DNA of 64,000 nt, from positions 372,001 through 436,000 of the forward strand of contig NZ_MWPH01000003.1 in NCBI RefSeq assembly GCF_002177135.1, read 5' to 3'. This stretch comes from Natronolimnobius baerhuensis (GTDB lineage Archaea; Halobacteriota; Halobacteria; Halobacteriales; Natrialbaceae). Position numbers and translations under genes: made by a program. The notes beneath the pieces were generated by a model. It was not told the DNA's origin. It saw nothing but the letters and a program-made list of their open reading frames with translations, and ran no database searches. Positions 2,818 through 62,225 of the stretch are shown here, one piece after another (within the stretch, counting starts at the first letter, position 1; each line of letters begins with the position of its first letter).

Positions 2818-5178
2818 TCAGGAGACGGTGATTTCGACTTCGTCAGTCGACTGACGGTCGAGTTGGTCCGTCGCGGTGAGTGTCACCGTGTACGTGCCAC
2901 TCGAGTCGTAGGTGTGGTCGTTCCACCAGCCACTGGCGGTCGTGCCGTCGCCGAAGTCCCACTCGAGGGACGTAATCCAGGCGTCGTTCGGGGAGGTATC
3001 GCTGACGCTGAACTCGAGGCGCTCGCCGGCCGAGGCGGACGTACTCGAGGGCTGCAGTTCGGCCAGATCATCCTCGAGCGGAATCTCTCCCTCGAGTGGT
3101 TCCCAGGTACCGTTGACATCGTATTCGGGTTCCTGACCCTGGTTCGTCCACTTGGCTTCCCAGTTCTCGCCATCCCAGGAGACGCGCTCGCCTTGCTGGT
3201 AGAGGACGTCCGACTCCCAGGTTGGGTAGTCGCCTGGTGCTGGTTCGTCTTCTTCGTCGGTCGTCGCCGTCACCGTCGCGGTGTCGGTCTCGTCGCCGTC
3301 GTCGCCAACAGCGCTGACGCCGATTTCGTAGGTCGTGTCGTCGTCGAGACCCGTGATCGTCGCGCTGGTCATCGTGGTATCGCTGTCGAGGCTGCCGTCG
3401 AGGTAGACGTTGAAGCTGGCCGCGTTGGCGTCGGCGCTCCAAGAGACCTCGATGGAGCTCTCAGTCGTCGAGACGACCTCGAGGGCTTCGGGGACGACCG
3501 GCGGTTCCTCAACCGGTTCACCCACGACGGAGAGGGTTGCGGATTCGGTTTCTGCCGGGATATCGTCGTCGTCGAGATCCTCCATGCGGACGATTTCGAC
3601 GTCGATGTCGGTGTCGCCGTTGGCCTGCCCCTCGAGTTCGACGTGACCGAAGTCGATATCGGTCGTGCCGGGGTCGAGCGGCTCGATGGCGCTGAGGCGG
3701 ACAGTGTCGCCCTCAATGTCGACGTAGCTGATTGGCTGGGACGTATCAGGGAACGGCTCGCTGATGTCGGCATCGGTGATCTCGACGATGCTGTCGTCGA
3801 TGGTGAGATCGACGGTAAAGCCGAGCAGGCCGTCGGGTGCCTCCGTGAGGCCGAGGTCGACGGTCGTCGTCTCGCCAGTGTCGATCTCGTCGTCGGCTGG
3901 GTCGACCGTAACAGTCGGCGTTTCCGGCGGCTCCTCACCAGTGACGGTCAGCGATTCGGACTGGGTTTCTGCCGGGATATCGTCGTCATCGAGGTCCTCG
4001 AGACGGACAACTTCGACGTCGATGTCGGTGTCGCCGCCAGCCACGCCCTCGAGTTCGACGTGACCGAAGTCGATGTTGGTCGTGCCGGGGTCGAGGGGTT
4101 CGATGGCGCTCAGGCGGACGGTATCGCCGTCGATATCGACATAGCTGATCGGGCTGGAGGTGTCTGGGAACGGCTCGCTGATATCTGCGTCGGCAATCGA
4201 GACGACGCTGTCGTCGATGGTGAGATCGACGGTAAAGCCGAGCAGGCCGTTCGGTGCCTCCGAGAGGCCGAGGTCGACGGTCGTCGTGTCGCCAGGCTCG
4301 ATCTCACTGTCTGCAAGATCGACCGTGACCGTCGTCGTTTCCGGCGGCTCGTCGTCTTCGGCGTCGGTCGTTGCCGTCACCGTCGCGGTACTCGTCTCGT
4401 CGCCGTCGTCACCGACAGCGCTGACACCGATTTCGTAGCTGGTGTCGGCGTCGAGACCCGTGACCGTTGCACTCGAGGTGGTCGTTTCGTCCTCGAGACT
4501 GCCATCGACGTAGACGTTGTAGCTGGCTGCGTTCGAGTCGGCGCTCCAGTCGACTTCGATGGAACTCTCGCTCGTCGAGACGACCTCGAGGCTCGTCGGC
4601 GTACTCGGTGGCGATGGGCCGTCGTCGGGCTCGCCAACGGTCAGCGTTGGGGCGTCGTAGTTGGCTTCTCTGACGACGTTGCTGTCCGGGTCTGTGAGTG
4701 CGAAGTCTTGAAGCTCGAGCGTCGTTTCGCCGTCACCCTGTGCTTCGAGGTGATAGGTTCCGACTTCGACGCTAGACTCTTCGATATCGGCGATCCGCGG
4801 GAGCAAAATCGAGTCGACCCCGCCGCCTGCCTCCTCGATTTCGTCGTTGAGTTCGAGTTCGAGCAGCGAGTTATTGATGTCGATTTCGGTGATCAGTGCA
4901 ACGTCGGGGTCGACCTCGAGCGTGACGTTGACGCCGGCTGAGCCGACTGGAACGTCCTCGAGTGAAACCGTTGCGGTTGTCGTTTCGCCGGGATCGAGTT
5001 GGTCGTCAGCGAGTTCGGTGACGATGGTTGGGACGTCCTGTGCGGATGCCGCTGTGGCACCGAGTGTAAGCGCACCTGCGCTCGCGCCGGCGGCTTTGAT
5101 GAAGGTCCGGCGTGAGGTCGGTGTACGGTCGTTTTCGGCCGCTTCGTCTGTGTTGTGGTGTGTTGTATCGTCGTTCAT
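2818..5178 (-). CDS. Scaffoldin-like secreted protein: three cohesin-like, two FN3, one CBM5/12-like and one PKD module
   Basis: The start at 5178 is chosen because AAAGGAG sits 9 nt upstream; an in-frame ATG at 5265 lacks this and would precede the Tat signal with unlikely sequence. The protein has 786 residues. In order: Tat signal (SRRTFIK, about 22-47), cohesin-like 1 (about 50-182), FN3 (about 193-272), cohesin-like 2 (about 283-412), cohesin-like 3 (about 422-552), FN3 (about 563-641), a Trp-rich CBM5/12-like module (about 651-694) and a PKD module (about 706-786, EWDFGDGT core). Cohesin-like 2 and 3 are near-duplicates sharing GLLGFTVDLTIDDS and VRLSAIEPLDPGTT. The modules fit the cohesin pattern of two PG-type beta strands, an early FTVDLTID strand and a late IDFGHVEL strand. 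No catalytic domain is visible. Next to dockerin-bearing GH10 and GH5 enzymes, the likely role is a carbohydrate-binding scaffold. The cohesin call rests on pattern and context and needs a profile search. Confidence 0.72.
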   Translation of the reverse strand: MNDDTTHHNTDEAAENDRTPTSRRTFIKAAGASAGALTLGATAASAQDVPTIVTELADDQLDPGETTTATVSLEDVPVGSAGVNVTLEVDPDVALITEIDINNSLLELELNDEIEEAGGGVDSILLPRIADIEESSVEVGTYHLEAQGDGETTLELQDFALTDPDSNVVREANYDAPTLTVGEPDDGPSPPSTPTSLEVVSTSESSIEVDWSADSNAASYNVYVDGSLEDETTTSSATVTGLDADTSYEIGVSAVGDDGDETSTATVTATTDAEDDEPPETTTVTVDLADSEIEPGDTTTVDLGLSEAPNGLLGFTVDLTIDDSVVSIADADISEPFPDTSSPISYVDIDGDTVRLSAIEPLDPGTTNIDFGHVELEGVAGGDTDIDVEVVRLEDLDDDDIPAETQSESLTVTGEEPPETPTVTVDPADDEIDTGETTTVDLGLTEAPDGLLGFTVDLTIDDSIVEITDADISEPFPDTSQPISYVDIEGDTVRLSAIEPLDPGTTDIDFGHVELEGQANGDTDIDVEIVRMEDLDDDDIPAETESATLSVVGEPVEEPPVVPEALEVVSTTESSIEVSWSADANAASFNVYLDGSLDSDTTMTSATITGLDDDTTYEIGVSAVGDDGDETDTATVTATTDEEDEPAPGDYPTWESDVLYQQGERVSWDGENWEAKWTNQGQEPEYDVNGTWEPLEGEIPLEDDLAELQPSSTSASAGERLEFSVSDTSPNDAWITSLEWDFGDGTTASGWWNDHTYDSSGTYTVTLTATDQLDRQSTDEVEITVS

Positions 5179-17849: not shown

Positions 17850-19028
17850 ATGGTCGAAACCGTGCTGTTGGTTGGTGTTGTGGCCTCGGTTTTCGTCGGG
17901 TTCAACATCGGTGGCTCCTCGACGGGGATTACGTGGGGGCCGTCGGTGGGGGCTGGAATTGTGTCGAAGACGACCGCTGCGGCAGTGATGACGGTGTTCG
18001 TCTTCCTCGGTGGGATGACTGTCGGCCGAAACGTGATGGATACGCTTAGCGAGGGGATCATCGATGTCGAACTCACGCTCGCAGCGGGCGTTGCGATCCT
18101 CTTTTTCATCGGTCTGGGGATGCTCATCGCCAACATCTTCGGTGTTCCCGTCCCGACGTCGATGACGACAGTCGGGGCAATTGCCGGTCTCGGACTGGCG
18201 ACTGACACGCTGAACTACGAGATGATTGCCGGTATCATCACGTGGTGGATCGTTACCCCAATTATCGGTCTCTGGGTTGGCGTGTTGATCGGGCGCTACG
18301 TCTACCCGTGGGTCAACGAGCAGGTGACGATCACAAAATCCGACGGGCCGTTGCTCGCACTCGAGCGCGGCGACAGGGTGCCGAAGCCGACCCTCGGCCC
18401 GAATACGACGAGTACCGAACTCGCGACGACGATTGCTGTCCTCGTGATTGGCTGTTACATGGCGTTCAGCGCAGGTGCGAGCAACGTCCCGAACGCTGCA
18501 GCCCCGCTTGTGGGGACCGCAGACGGTCTCGAGGACACGACCGCGATTATCGTTGCCACACTCGCGATCAGTCTCGGCGGGTTCACAATCGCTCGCCGAA
18601 CGATGGACTCGGTCGGCGGCGAACTCAGTGATATTCCGCTGCTCGCGGCGCTGTTCGTCATGGTGACTGCCTCGACGATCACCACCGTGCTCTCGTGGGC
18701 TGGCATTCCGATCAGTCTCGTGATGGCCACCGTGATGACTATCGTCGGCATCGGCTGGGGCCGGGCAACACGTCCAATCACTGTCCGTGAGGCGGTTACC
18801 CGCGACCCCGAGACAGCGGACATCGAACTCGGTGCGATTGTTTCCGAGGAGAAAGTCGACGAGGCCGCCCCCGCTATCGGTGAACCCGAATCCGAGGACG
18901 TGCTTCGCGGTGACGAACTGTTTAACCCGCGCGCGATCATCAAATACGTCTCGATGTGGGTTATCGGTCCCTCGATGTCGACACTCCTCGCGTACGGCTT
19001 CTTCGCTGTCGTTCCCGGTGTCGCCTAA
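17850..19028 (+). CDS. Pit-family inorganic phosphate permease
   Basis: The 392-residue membrane protein has two homologous halves of the Pit/PF01384 family, low-affinity phosphate carriers driven by cation gradients. The halves share NIGGSSTGITWGPSVGA in the first part and GASNVPNAAAPLVG in the second. About ten hydrophobic helices surround a central hydrophilic loop. A charged C-terminal loop (EEKVDEAAPAIGEPESEDVL) precedes the last helix. A UspA gene follows 34 nt downstream and a second Pit gene lies 1.5 kb further on. Phosphate is the family substrate; sulfate has been proposed for some relatives. Confidence 0.88.
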   Translation: MVETVLLVGVVASVFVGFNIGGSSTGITWGPSVGAGIVSKTTAAAVMTVFVFLGGMTVGRNVMDTLSEGIIDVELTLAAGVAILFFIGLGMLIANIFGVPVPTSMTTVGAIAGLGLATDTLNYEMIAGIITWWIVTPIIGLWVGVLIGRYVYPWVNEQVTITKSDGPLLALERGDRVPKPTLGPNTTSTELATTIAVLVIGCYMAFSAGASNVPNAAAPLVGTADGLEDTTAIIVATLAISLGGFTIARRTMDSVGGELSDIPLLAALFVMVTASTITTVLSWAGIPISLVMATVMTIVGIGWGRATRPITVREAVTRDPETADIELGAIVSEEKVDEAAPAIGEPESEDVLRGDELFNPRAIIKYVSMWVIGPSMSTLLAYGFFAVVPGVA

Positions 19029-19062: not shown

Positions 19063-19491
19063 ATGCTCTCGAATATTCTCGTCCCAATGGACGACTCCGA
19101 CCACGCCGAACACGCCCTCGAGTACGCCCTCGAGAACTACCCAGACGCCGAAATCACCGTCTTGAACGTCGTCGGCGTCCCCTCGATGATGATGGGTGAT
19201 GCAGTCGGTCTCACGCTCGAGGATGATCTTGATGCGGCTGCAACAGACCATGCACAAGCAGTGTTCGACCGTGCGCACAAGTGTGCCGAGGAACGGGACC
19301 GAGACCTCGAGACGGTCGTCGGTATCGGACATCCGGCGCGGAACATTATCGACCGTGCTGCTGACTACGATGCAGTCATCCTTGGGAGCCACGGCGAAGA
19401 CTGGAGCCGTGCGACACATCGGTTTCTCGTTGGCAACGTCGCAGAGACGGTGTCAAAACGGGCACCAGTTCCAGTAACGATTGTCAGATAA
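19063..19491 (+). CDS. Universal stress protein, UspA family
   Basis: The 142-residue protein has the single alpha/beta Usp fold: N-terminal NILVPMDDSDHAEHAL, a central VVGIGHPARNIIDRAADYDAVILGSHG and the C-terminal nucleotide-loop GNVAETVSKRAPVPVTIV. The GSHGxxx-SxxTxRFLVGNVAETV region is of the ATP-binding type. It follows the Pit permease on the same strand by 34 nt and is likely cotranscribed; Usp proteins are often found with transporters in haloarchaea and may tune them. The 3' end is convergent with the repeat protein gene. Confidence 0.9.
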   Translation: MLSNILVPMDDSDHAEHALEYALENYPDAEITVLNVVGVPSMMMGDAVGLTLEDDLDAAATDHAQAVFDRAHKCAEERDRDLETVVGIGHPARNIIDRAADYDAVILGSHGEDWSRATHRFLVGNVAETVSKRAPVPVTIVR

Positions 19492-19501
19492 AGACAGGCC
19501 G

Positions 19502-20323
19502 TTACGAGTCCGCTTCCTTCTCACCGGATTCTTTGTCTTCGTCGTCTTCGTCTTTGTCTTCGCGCGGATGCTGGTGTTCGTCGACGGCTTCGAACTGCGC
19601 CTGAACTTCTCCGACCTGTTTTCCAACGGTCTCTTCGACGGTTTCACTCACCGTTTCTTCGACAGTTTCACTGACCGTTTCCTCGACGGTTTTATCGACT
19701 GCCTCGCCGACGGATTCTTCGACGGTTTCACTCACCGTTTCTTCGACAGTTTCACTGACCGTTTCCTCGACGGTTTTATCGACTGCCTCGCCAACGGATT
19801 CTTCGACGGTTTCACTCACCGTTTCCTCGACAGTTTCACTGACTGTTTCCTCGACGGTTTTATCGACTGCCTCGCCAACGGATTCTTCGACGGTTTCACT
19901 GACTGTTTCCTCGACGGACTTATCGACTGCCTCGCCGACGGATTCTTCGACGGTTTCACTCACCGTTTCACTGACCGTTTCCTCAACGGTTTTATCGACT
20001 GCCTCGCCAACAGATTTCTCGACGGTTTCACCGACGGCAGTTTCGACCGTCTCTTCCATCTGCGCCTGGACGTCATCGACTTGCTTTTCGACAGTCTCAC
20101 CGACTGTCTCCTCGACTGTCTCCTCGACAGCCTCTGTCATCCAGTTCGGATCGAATCGTGCCATCTTCCAGACGACGTGGATCACGTACGAAATAAAGAC
20201 CCCAATCCCGAACGCGAGTCCAGCGTTTGTGGTGTCGAGCACGACGATTAGAACGATTGAGAGCGCAATCAGCGCCCCATACGCGATATCAACTGCCGCA
20301 TCGACACGGACCGGATTCAACAT
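19502..20323 (-). CDS. Membrane-anchored valine-tetrad repeat protein
   Basis: The 273-residue protein has two N-terminal membrane helices (about 12-30 and 34-54). A repeat region follows (about 66-240) in which valine occurs every fourth residue. The middle part is an unbroken run of about 36 tetrads such as VEET, VSET, VEES, VGEA and VDKT. The tetrads build larger units of 28 residues. The run is bracketed by related sequences, KQVDDVQAQMEE at its start and KQVGEVQAQFEA at its end. The tail is highly acidic and polar (DKDEDDEDKESGEKE). The composition strongly predicts helix. I do not recognise the family and assign no function. It lies between UspA and Pit genes, with the second Pit gene divergent from it. 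Confidence 0.8.
   Translation of the reverse strand: MLNPVRVDAAVDIAYGALIALSIVLIVVLDTTNAGLAFGIGVFISYVIHVVWKMARFDPNWMTEAVEETVEETVGETVEKQVDDVQAQMEETVETAVGETVEKSVGEAVDKTVEETVSETVSETVEESVGEAVDKSVEETVSETVEESVGEAVDKTVEETVSETVEETVSETVEESVGEAVDKTVEETVSETVEETVSETVEESVGEAVDKTVEETVSETVEETVSETVEETVGKQVGEVQAQFEAVDEHQHPREDKDEDDEDKESGEKEADS
19604..20128. repeat. In-gene tandem repeats encoding the valine tetrads
   Basis: The DNA repeats in 12-bp steps, with near-identical longer units of 84 bp and 60 bp. These correspond to 7-tetrad and 5-tetrad protein units containing VEES-VGEA-VDKT. Identical third positions across units show that recent recombination or slippage has expanded the array. It is coding throughout and not a CRISPR array. 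Confidence 0.85.
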
Positions 20324-20578: not shown

Positions 20579-21817
20579 GTGAGTGAAGTACTCCTTCTCG
20601 TCGGTCTTCTCGTTGCTGCGTTCGTCGGGTACAACATCGGCGGTGCGACGACGGGTCCAGCGTTTGGGCCGGCCGTCGGCGCGAACGTCATCACGAAACT
20701 GATGGCCGCCGCACTGATGTCGGTTTTCTTCTTTCTGGGGGCGGCGACAATCGGGCCGAATGTCGTTACGACACTCGGTGAAGACCTCGTTCATACCACT
20801 GACATCTTTACGCTTCAAGCGAACGTCGCCGTGCTCTTCTTTATCGGTGGCGCGCTGTTTATCGGTAACTACGCTGGTGTTCCAGCCTCGACCTCGATGA
20901 CCGCTGTCGGCGCAATCGCTGCACTTGGACTCGCAACGGGCGAACTTGCCTGGGACGTCCTCGGGCAGATCGTCGTCTGGTGGATCGTCGCCCCAATCGT
21001 CGGCTTCTGGGTCGCCGGTGTCGTCGGCCGCTACTACTACCCACAAATCAACGAGTGGGTCGCTATCGAAGGCACCAGTGAGGGCAGACAGATGATCTCC
21101 GTGGATCGCTCCGGGCTTGCACCGCGACTCCAGTTCGGCGAGGGTGCAACCCGCCGTGAGATCACAGGCGCGTTTGTCGTCGTCGGTATCGGCTGTCTGA
21201 TGGCCTTTTCCTCGGGGACAAGCAACATCGCCAACGCAATCGCCCCCATCTACGGTGCCGATATCGACGTTCTCGAGGTGCTCGGGCTTGGCAGTGACGT
21301 CGGTGAGATTGCCGGTGTCGAACCCGACATGATGTTCCTGATCGTCATCGGATCGATTGCCGTCACAATTGGCTGTTTCACGATTGCGCGCAGAACCCTC
21401 GATACGCTCGGGAACGACATCACGAACCTGCCGCTGACGGCCGCAATCGTCGTCGCTGTCATCGCCTCAGGAATTGTCATCGGCCTCTCGTGGATCGGTA
21501 TCCCAGCGAGTTTCGTCGTCATCGCAACGATGAGCATTATCGGCCTCGGTTGGGGTCGTGCAACCCGGACAACCACGATTTCAGACGTTCGGAAAGGTGA
21601 GGAGACTCGAGTCTCTGTCGGCGCACTTACTGCCGACGAGGAAGGCGAGCCATCGCCGGAAATCGGCGAGGAAGAACCCGAAGACATCCCCAAAGCATCG
21701 GACCTGTTCAATCCGTCGACGACTGCCCGCGTCATCCTTATGCAAAACGTCGTCCCGCTCATCTCGACCGTTGGCGCGTTCATCACGTTCCGATTCATCC
21801 CCATTTTCGGCCTGTAA
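20579..21817 (+). CDS. Pit-family inorganic phosphate permease, second copy
   Basis: The 412-residue protein is a clear paralogue of the one at 17850, sharing NIGGATTGPAFGPAVGA and GTSNIANAIAPIYG half-signatures, the central loop and the C-terminal acidic loop (EIGEEEPEDIPKASDLFNP). Compared with the first copy it has an insertion near DIDVLEVLGLGSDVGEIAGV. The GTG at 20579 is used, with a TATA-like region about 28 nt upstream. Two copies this close suggest a duplication followed by divergence, perhaps with different expression. Confidence 0.88.
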   Translation: MSEVLLLVGLLVAAFVGYNIGGATTGPAFGPAVGANVITKLMAAALMSVFFFLGAATIGPNVVTTLGEDLVHTTDIFTLQANVAVLFFIGGALFIGNYAGVPASTSMTAVGAIAALGLATGELAWDVLGQIVVWWIVAPIVGFWVAGVVGRYYYPQINEWVAIEGTSEGRQMISVDRSGLAPRLQFGEGATRREITGAFVVVGIGCLMAFSSGTSNIANAIAPIYGADIDVLEVLGLGSDVGEIAGVEPDMMFLIVIGSIAVTIGCFTIARRTLDTLGNDITNLPLTAAIVVAVIASGIVIGLSWIGIPASFVVIATMSIIGLGWGRATRTTTISDVRKGEETRVSVGALTADEEGEPSPEIGEEEPEDIPKASDLFNPSTTARVILMQNVVPLISTVGAFITFRFIPIFGL

Positions 21818-60145: not shown

Positions 60146-61339
60146 ATGGTCGATCCCGCGACGATTGCGACGTTTCTCGTAGCTGCAGTTGCCAGCCTCT
60201 TTATGGCCTGGGCAATCGGCGCAGGCTCGAGCGGGTCGACTCCGTTCGCGCCAGCGGTTGGGGCAAACGCGATTTCGGTGATGCGGGCCGGCTTTCTCGT
60301 CGGGTTGCTTGGCTTTGCTGGTGCAGTGTTACAGGGAGCGAACGTCTCCGAAGCGGTTGGAAACGATTTGATCGGTGGCGTCGTCCTGTCGGCACCGGCA
60401 GCGACGATTGCGCTCGTCATCGCGGCGACACTGGTCGCGATTGGCGTCTTCGCGGGGTATCCGATTGCGACGGCATTTACCGTCACCGGTGCGGTAATCG
60501 GTGTCGGGCTCGCAATGGGCGGCGATCCAGCGTGGCCGAAGTATATCGAAATCGCGACGCTGTGGATTTTGACGCCGTTCGTCGGTGGTGGACTCGCCTA
60601 TGTGATTGCCCGATTATTACGCAGCGAACCAATCTCTGAAGAAATCTCAATCATGGTCCTCGCCGGATTTGTCGGCATTCTCATCGCAAACATCGAGTTC
60701 GCCATCCTGGGCTCTGCTGATGCCGGGGGCGAATCGATTGCACAGTCGACGAGCGAGTTCCTTCCGATTCCCGAGTTCGCTGGTATCCTTGTCGTCACAG
60801 CGGTGATGGCTGGTCTCTGGGCAGGCGCGATTGGCGTTGACCTTCGCAAGGGTACCGAACGCGGCGAGCGACACTTCCTCTTAATTCTCGGTGCACTGGT
60901 CGCGTTCTCCGCCGGTGGGAGTCAGGTTGGACTGGCGATTGGGCCGCTGATTCCGCTGTCTGGCGACCTCGAGTTGCCACTGCTCGCACTTCTGGTCGGC
61001 GGCGGATTCGGGCTGCTCCTTGGCTCGTGGACCGGCGCACCACGGATGATCAAGGCGATTTCGCAGGACTACTCCTCACTCGGGCCACGCCGGTCTATCG
61101 CCGCGTTGATCCCGTCGTTTCTCATCGCACAGACGGCTGTTCTCTACGGCATCCCCGTCTCCTTTAACGAGATTATCGTCAGTTCGATCATCGGGAGCGG
61201 CTACGCGGCAGCCGGTGCCGGCGGCGGCGTCAGCGCCCGTAAAATGGGCTACACCGTCCTCGCGTGGATCGGCTCGCTCGCCGGCTCGATCATCATCTCG
61301 TTTGTCGGCTTTTACGGATTCGCTTTGCTCTTTCTCTGA
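60146..61339 (+). CDS. Pit-family inorganic phosphate permease, third copy
   Basis: The 397-residue protein has the Pit half-signatures GAGSSGSTPFAPAVGANAIS and AGGSQVGLAIGPLIPLSGDL. It is more distant from the two at 17850 and 20579 than those are from each other, and has a shorter central loop. AGGAGT about 8 nt upstream of the ATG is a good ribosome binding site, so unlike the other two the mRNA has a leader. It lies divergent from the amino acid ABC operon. Confidence 0.86.
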   Translation: MVDPATIATFLVAAVASLFMAWAIGAGSSGSTPFAPAVGANAISVMRAGFLVGLLGFAGAVLQGANVSEAVGNDLIGGVVLSAPAATIALVIAATLVAIGVFAGYPIATAFTVTGAVIGVGLAMGGDPAWPKYIEIATLWILTPFVGGGLAYVIARLLRSEPISEEISIMVLAGFVGILIANIEFAILGSADAGGESIAQSTSEFLPIPEFAGILVVTAVMAGLWAGAIGVDLRKGTERGERHFLLILGALVAFSAGGSQVGLAIGPLIPLSGDLELPLLALLVGGGFGLLLGSWTGAPRMIKAISQDYSSLGPRRSIAALIPSFLIAQTAVLYGIPVSFNEIIVSSIIGSGYAAAGAGGGVSARKMGYTVLAWIGSLAGSIIISFVGFYGFALLFL

Positions 61340-61421: not shown

Positions 61422-62225
61422 ATGGACGCGGATTCGCCCGTCGACCCGGACGACCCCGGCACGGTCCAGTGGCGACGTGATGCCACCACCTCGAGAACGC
61501 TTCGGTTGCTGTGGTCGTTCGGTGTCGGGACGCTCTTTGCGATGGTATTGATCATCGCCGTCTGGCGGCTGTACGATATTGCAGGGCAAGCCGGTGATGT
61601 GTTTCAAGCCGTTATCCTTGCAGCCGTCGCCGCGACTATCGTCACCATCCTCGCGGTGGTACTCAGTAGTAACTCGGCGGCCCAACTCGAGCGACTACTG
61701 GCTCCGCTGCCGGTACCGATGCCCGATCACAGTGGTCTCGACCGGGTGCTGAACGCGGCACTTGGCACGGTCATCATGGCAGTGTTCATCGCGACACTGA
61801 TGGTGATGGGACGAATCGCCGCCCAGCCTGAATTCCTTGGAGCGGGTGGTGAAAGCCCCTTTACCGGCCTCGCTGCGGCGACGATTCCCCTTGCGCTGAT
61901 CGGCCTTGCGCTAGCGTCGTTTTTGCACTCCGTTGGCGCGTTCGACCGCAAAGACGAAACGATCTACCTCTACGACCCGGATCAAGCAATCGACCTCGCC
62001 GACATCAACGCCGTCTCGAGTCGGACGGTCGGTGACACGGCCATCCTCACGCTCGAGTACGCCCAGCCGGATGGGCAGTATGTTGCCGGCCCGCGTCGCA
62101 TCGTCGTTCCACCCGCAGTCGCTGACGATGTTCGGTCGACTGTCGACGCTCGGCGACTGCGATTCTCCGAGAAAGTCCGCCAGCGGATTCGCGGGTGGCT
62201 CCCATCCCGCTTTCGCTCGTCGTAG
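61422..62225 (+). CDS. Membrane protein with C-terminal PH-like domain
   Basis: The 267-residue protein has four helices (LLWSFGVGTLFAMVLIIAVW, AVILAAVAATIVTILAVVL, VLNAALGTVIMAVFIATLMV and ATIPLALIGLALASFLHSVG). A C-terminal beta part follows (ETIYLYDPDQAIDLADINAV, then YVAGPRRIVVPPAVAD). The layout recalls the protein at 44304. Function unknown. A GGCTTTACC element lies about 28 nt upstream of the ATG. Confidence 0.65.
   Translation: MDADSPVDPDDPGTVQWRRDATTSRTLRLLWSFGVGTLFAMVLIIAVWRLYDIAGQAGDVFQAVILAAVAATIVTILAVVLSSNSAAQLERLLAPLPVPMPDHSGLDRVLNAALGTVIMAVFIATLMVMGRIAAQPEFLGAGGESPFTGLAAATIPLALIGLALASFLHSVGAFDRKDETIYLYDPDQAIDLADINAVSSRTVGDTAILTLEYAQPDGQYVAGPRRIVVPPAVADDVRSTVDARRLRFSEKVRQRIRGWLPSRFRSS

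Follow-up and report, generated by a model that had tools for sequence, protein, structure and literature searches.

What fold and what function can a protein have in which valine recurs at every fourth residue, without a miss, over 145 residues behind a membrane anchor? The question is raised by a gene, here called the tetrad gene, in a stretch of 64,000 nucleotides from the haloarchaeon Natronolimnobius baerhuensis (the window). We confirmed the open reading frame on the minus strand (20323..19502), which codes for 273 residues, and also the run of about 36 uninterrupted tetrads noted in the preliminary description of this DNA: valines occupy residues 66, 70, 74, 78 and 82 and then 93, 97 and every fourth position to 237, so that the main array comprises 37 valines or 36 tetrads. 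The register changes once before the array, along residues 82-85-89(M)-93 (steps 3-4-4), and leaves it along 237-240-244(F)-247 (3-4-3, a heptad). Valine runs reached at most 10 when the tail sequence was shuffled 20,000 times, compared to the 37 observed. Hydropathy backs two transmembrane segments, as expected for the proposed membrane anchor, and gives no hydrophobic window past residue 64 of this protein. Table 1 lists the features of the locus. An open frame on the plus strand (19481-20251) was rejected as a gene, being a by-product of the repeat.

Table 1 Features of the tetrad gene and its neighbours, in window coordinates
Feature	Position	Strand	Evidence or remark
Tetrad-protein gene, 273 aa plus stop	19502..20323	-	Orthologues in 270/391 Halobacteria genomes
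Membrane hairpin of two helices (residues 13-54), both termini predicted in the cytoplasm	20162..20287	-	Hydropathy, positive-inside counts, AF2 helices
Juxtamembrane motif WKMARFDPxWMT, residues 52-63, nearly invariant	20135..20170	-	Invariant columns, alignments A1, A2, A3
First five V tetrads, residues 66-82	20078..20128	-	
KQVDDVQAQM, residues 80-89, single register 3-step	20057..20086	-	Motif recurs every 15 residues in L024
Main array, residues 93-237: 37 V in an unbroken four-residue register	19613..20047	-	DNA repeats 12, 60, 72, 84, 144 bp
KQVGEVQAQF, residues 235-244, opens C-terminal heptad (3-4-3) block	19592..19621	-	
Acidic C-terminal tail	19505..19582	-	Relatives: DERVDRRPREDEVEELIEES at same place, degenerate in window's genus
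Universal stress protein (UspA type), convergent neighbour	19063..19491	+	Pfam PF00582 E 2.6e-24
PHO4/PiT-family transporter 1	17850..19028	+	Pfam PF01384 E 5.4e-45
PHO4/PiT-family transporter 2, divergent from tetrad gene	20579..21817	+	Pfam PF01384 E 5.1e-39; synteny

The gene belongs to a widespread family. When we searched with a profile restricted to the membrane anchor (A2), 270 of the 391 Halobacteria genomes contained it, mostly as a single copy, and these cover 69 of 86 genera. A sample of 393 genomes from the phylum gave 59 anchor matches, every one of them in the window's own order. Relatives occur in genera that include Natrialba, Natronorubrum, Halorubrum, Haloferax, Halogeometricum and Halosimplex; the architecture recurs in dozens of genera and is therefore neither a chance product nor a sequencing artefact. 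No model in Pfam or NCBIfam extends over the membrane anchor, and matches to these collections are confined to the low-complexity tail, where CdrL_M scores 27.7 bits (cut-off 27) without any passing stretch. Copies on plasmids are annotated as 'hypothetical protein', our literature searches found no description of the family, and no member was found in phage records. A sequence search of the PDB returned chance matches only, among them the unrelated 9ikm, whose aligned chain reads SXTASXTAS; a fold search with a short orthologue, for which the query model was weak, gave no match.

A second, divergent group (clade 2: L146, L148, L149, L150 and L152) was first met among matches to the full tetrad protein. 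Its anchor reads ..FYIDLxYG..GGLVxGYFLRVWEKM.. and, in a comparison of anchor profiles, aligns with that of clade 1 at E 2.6e-8 and a probability of 95%. Strong matches occur in roughly 23 of 242 genomes, and none was found in the window's own genome. The residue before valine (d position) is E, Q or R in clade 2 versus T in clade 1, and the tail steps of clade 2 comprise 419 fours, 33 threes, a single five and 38 eights. Across the clades it is the spacing, and not the letters, that is conserved. L173-L195 belong to clade 2 as well, all of it made up of two-transmembrane proteins with V tetrads and the anchor motif of this clade.

The spacing follows a simple grammar. Counting the distances between successive hydrophobic tail residues in 109 distinct relatives of 117-361 residues, we obtained 3,454 steps of four, 226 of three and 10 of five. 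The commonest numbers of fours between two threes are n = 1, 3, 4 and 5 (3+4n units), where n = 1 corresponds to heptads, mostly in the C-terminal block, and n = 3 to 15-mers. Exact 15-residue (3-4-4-4) units (VEKQVEGVQTQVEET) make up most of L024 and L112; this pentadecad repeat is partly present in L015 and absent from the window protein, in which KQVDDVQAQM is probably a remnant of the 15-residue form. The longest pure V runs of the proteins have a median of 22, ranging from 3 to 55 (L095, Halobaculum litoreum). Spectral peaks lie at 3.978 for the window protein, 3.76 for L024 and 4.00 for L095 and L138. With the heptads and 15-residue units of some relatives included, the family covers a range of 3.5 to 4.0 residues per turn. 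The preliminary description had named a disrupted repeat in close relatives as a counter-argument; the relatives keep the spacing and change the number of tetrads. It had further taken two KQVxxVQAQ sequences as brackets of a functional unit. Both copies exist (residues 80-89 and 235-244), but they do not bound a unit: the motif equals the 3-4 steps of the repeat grammar and occurs one to eight times per protein, also in mid-array. Tetrads starting with VG are almost never adjacent (0.016 versus 0.30 in shuffled sequences), and this avoidance, seen at window positions 19613-20047 and in relatives, produces a faint eight-residue super-period.

In the window, the tetrad gene lies between two PHO4/PiT-family transporter genes and a UspA gene. 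Among 80 named clade 1 loci, 49 have PHO4 within 5 kb (49 of 53 when Halorubrum is left aside; 27 of the 31 loci without nearby PHO4 are from Halorubrum), as do all four plasmid loci examined, where the transporter is adjacent. A rough estimate of the chance of a nearby PiT gene, with four such genes and 11 kb allowed for each in 3.9 Mb, is about 1%. At 16 loci the two genes run in the same direction with the tetrad gene first, and at 12 of these stop and start overlap by 1-10 bases, with start codons picked mechanically and two of the 16 transporters checked against PF01384. In clade 2, PHO4 is found within 1.5 kb in 17 of 26 distinct loci, the transporter usually just upstream. These counts are not independent, because the sequences are related, yet several different arrangements recur. 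Co-occurrence of anchor and PHO4 is uninformative, since PHO4 is present in 390 of 391 genomes; more than 100 genomes carry it without a clade 1 protein. PF01384 takes in sulfate permeases too; the NCBIfam CysP model gives 113-144 bits, below its cut-off. As its gene usually adjoins that of a phosphate-type transporter, the tetrad protein is probably an unrecognised partner of this transporter. Against this reading stand Halorubrum, without a nearby PiT gene, and those PiT genes that have no tetrad neighbour, for example the third PHO4-family transporter of the window (60146-61339). In the Halorubrum loci the tetrad gene appears relocated, PHO4 being absent from the flanks; at the one examined for secY (L044, 5001-5834) it is convergent with that gene. 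The third PHO4 gene of the window is followed by an unannotated membrane protein (61422-62225) with no Pfam match.

Topology and secondary structure were predicted. K+R counts over 109 relatives are 0.99 at the N-terminus, 0.06 in the loop and 2.52 after the second transmembrane segment; as the loop is almost free of the positive charges that both ends carry, both termini are predicted to be cytoplasmic. AF2 places the hairpin helices at residues 4-28 and 31-56 and predicts nearly the whole tail as helix. Structure prediction of the monomer, proposed earlier as a check, thus delivered the helix across the tail but not the confidence, as pLDDT is 65-80 in the anchor and below 50 in much of the array. 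The same secondary structure is predicted for L030, an orthologue of 118 residues, with a mean pLDDT of 64.

Taken together, we favour, with an even chance of being right, a helical, probably self-associating rod that acts on the PiT transporter. The protein would be a membrane-anchored accessory protein of haloarchaeal PHO4/PiT-type anion transporters, held in the membrane by a two-helix hairpin with both ends in the cytoplasm. Its tail would form a rigid, strongly acidic helical rod with one valine per turn, and the valine stripe may let copies associate side by side in a right-handed coiled coil that reaches the limit known for coiling or passes it. The length of the tail, 3 to 55 tetrads in a row, is set by tandem duplication, and the rod might bring the neighbouring transporter into clusters, set its spacing or gate it from the cytoplasmic face, as gene neighbourhood suggests. 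Within this proposal, the evidence for the helix and that for the transporter partnership are each stronger than the evidence for continuous coiling. Among the closest known systems is PitR/PhoU2 (PhoU/DUF47), an accessory protein encoded in the S. aureus pit operon (PMC7326077). It resembles the tetrad protein as a small protein encoded directly with a PiT transporter; PhoU/DUF47 proteins are, however, soluble helical bundles, whereas the tetrad protein would be a membrane-anchored repeat rod, in which we found no Pfam or NCBIfam match to a PhoU-type domain.

The period of the tail (3.98 in the window protein) is neither that of a heptad nor of a hendecad coil, as the preliminary description had held, and its suggestion of a right-handed helical supercoil has become the best fit, because relatives (L024, L112) contain exact 15-residue 3-4-4-4 units and the steps are threes and fours with almost no five. 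Such steps mark an alpha-helical core, and the relatives at 3.75 fit known right-handed coils. Tetrabrachion-type stalks are 15-residue right-handed coiled coils. With pentadecad and 19/5 coiled coils, L024 and L112 share exclusive steps of three and four and a spectral peak near 3.75, whereas most family members differ from them in running at 3.95-4.0 with long pure stretches of 20-55 consecutive four-residue steps. Core steps of only three and four at a mean period above 3.63 are found here (peaks 3.76-4.00), but the accessible period of a coiled coil, up to about 3.9, is exceeded by the window protein and by many relatives at 4.00. This limit of about 3.9 residues per turn is the published one, which leaves 4.0 outside, and the most extreme coiled coil described is YadA at 3.8 (PMC4786415). 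For a period of 4.0 we computed a right-handed twist of 9 degrees per residue, a pitch near 59 Å and a pitch angle of 28 degrees. The tail therefore either exceeds the published limit, or has a helix that is underwound in places, or makes intermittent contacts. Coiling is further opposed by composition: V and T are beta-branched and G makes up 28% of b positions, both poor helix formers.

A rival explanation, which we consider unlikely, takes the tail for a charge-stabilised helical monomer or a loose helical bundle: the valine stripe would wind round the rod with intermittent contacts, and the rod would serve as a ruler and not as a coiled coil. Single alpha-helix (SAH) domains are long, highly charged and variable in length, and the tetrad tail is likewise long, charged, probably helical and variable in length. 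The valine stripe of a straight helix shifts with each tetrad by about 37-40 degrees, the AF2 models show long single helices, b and c positions are rich in E and K, and length varies strongly between conserved ends. A charged rod, however, would need no hydrophobic residue at 98% of register sites, every fourth position of an SAH domain carries no such conserved residue, and the tail contains mostly E and little K or R, so that few i to i+4 salt bridges are available; its 15-residue and heptad variants resemble coiled-coil cores. Rather unlikely is a bolder version of the rod itself, a natural, selected fold of exactly 4.0 residues per turn relative to its partner, stabilised in molar salt and tunable in length, that regulates PiT either as a tighter supercoil or as a helix underwound to a form between alpha and pi; as a supercoil it may have the pitch computed above, far tighter than in the coiled coils we found described. 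We consider it quite improbable that the tail forms an intrinsically disordered acidic brush or tether, selected for its length and charge. Such tails are common in haloarchaeal proteins, and the low AF2 confidence, a net charge of about -63 over 210 residues, the glycine beside beta-branched residues, the low-complexity sequence and repeats that turn over rapidly would all suit one, but not the strict hydrophobic register, the near-absence of five-residue steps and a spacing common to clades with different letters. Beta-solenoids with four-residue faces were rejected, because three- and four-residue steps are interchangeable with heptads and 15-mers, and because such a fold would force charged residues into its interior.

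Very improbable is an amphipathic helix lying on the membrane or another surface, the lipid- or surface-binding helix of the preliminary description, which we judge unlikely along the whole tail. The lipid-binding helices of apolipoproteins and alpha-synuclein have 11-residue repeats with a period of 3.67; the tail shares with them a repetitive V/T/E/K helix near a membrane, the anchor and periodicities of 3.67-3.75 suit a surface helix, and PF01442 (Apolipoprotein A1/A4/E) has a weak sub-threshold match to L024. Yet this score (25 bits versus a cut-off of 90) is far below threshold, the window protein has no match to the model, the tail is strongly acidic, and at a period of 4.0 instead of 3.67 the hydrophobic face circles a straight helix about every 36-40 residues, or roughly every nine tetrads.

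The array grows by tandem duplication, and selection holds the valine and the grammar of three- and four-residue steps. At sites flanked by in-register valines we counted 2,766 V and 51 other residues (2,817 in total), 43 of the 51 being I, M, L or F; D and G were never seen, though each is one base from GTC. Valine codons comprise 2,179 GTC, 348 GTG, 176 GTT and 63 GTA, and their third bases differ between tetrads by a mean of 0.36 in pairwise comparisons within genes. Rare, mostly hydrophobic replacements and freely varying third positions indicate that valine is selected and not a by-product of slippage. Neutral slippage of a 12-nt unit, yielding a protein pattern without function, is accordingly barely credible and was rejected on this codon evidence (1.8% non-valine), despite clear tandem DNA units of 60, 84 and 144 bp, the 84-bp unit 96% matching.

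The family also has a wider use. In its homologous natural tails the repeat passes from heptads by way of 15-residue units to pure tetrads by the dozen, with the hydrophobic register selected throughout, so that the limit of alpha-helix underwinding becomes directly testable with natural sequences; and a widespread, unannotated haloarchaeal family becomes a candidate partner of PiT-type transporters. Elsewhere in the window, a tandem-repeat finder reports a 417-bp tandem duplication at 3540-4350 (1.9 copies, 85% matching). A V-tetrad scan of viral contigs yielded, among the matches listed, mostly antisense or V-x-V noise. One viral contig (L303) carries on its plus strand a predicted frame of 172 codons with a strongly basic V tetrad array (VDKKVAKRVVKK...), in charge the mirror image of the haloarchaeal array.
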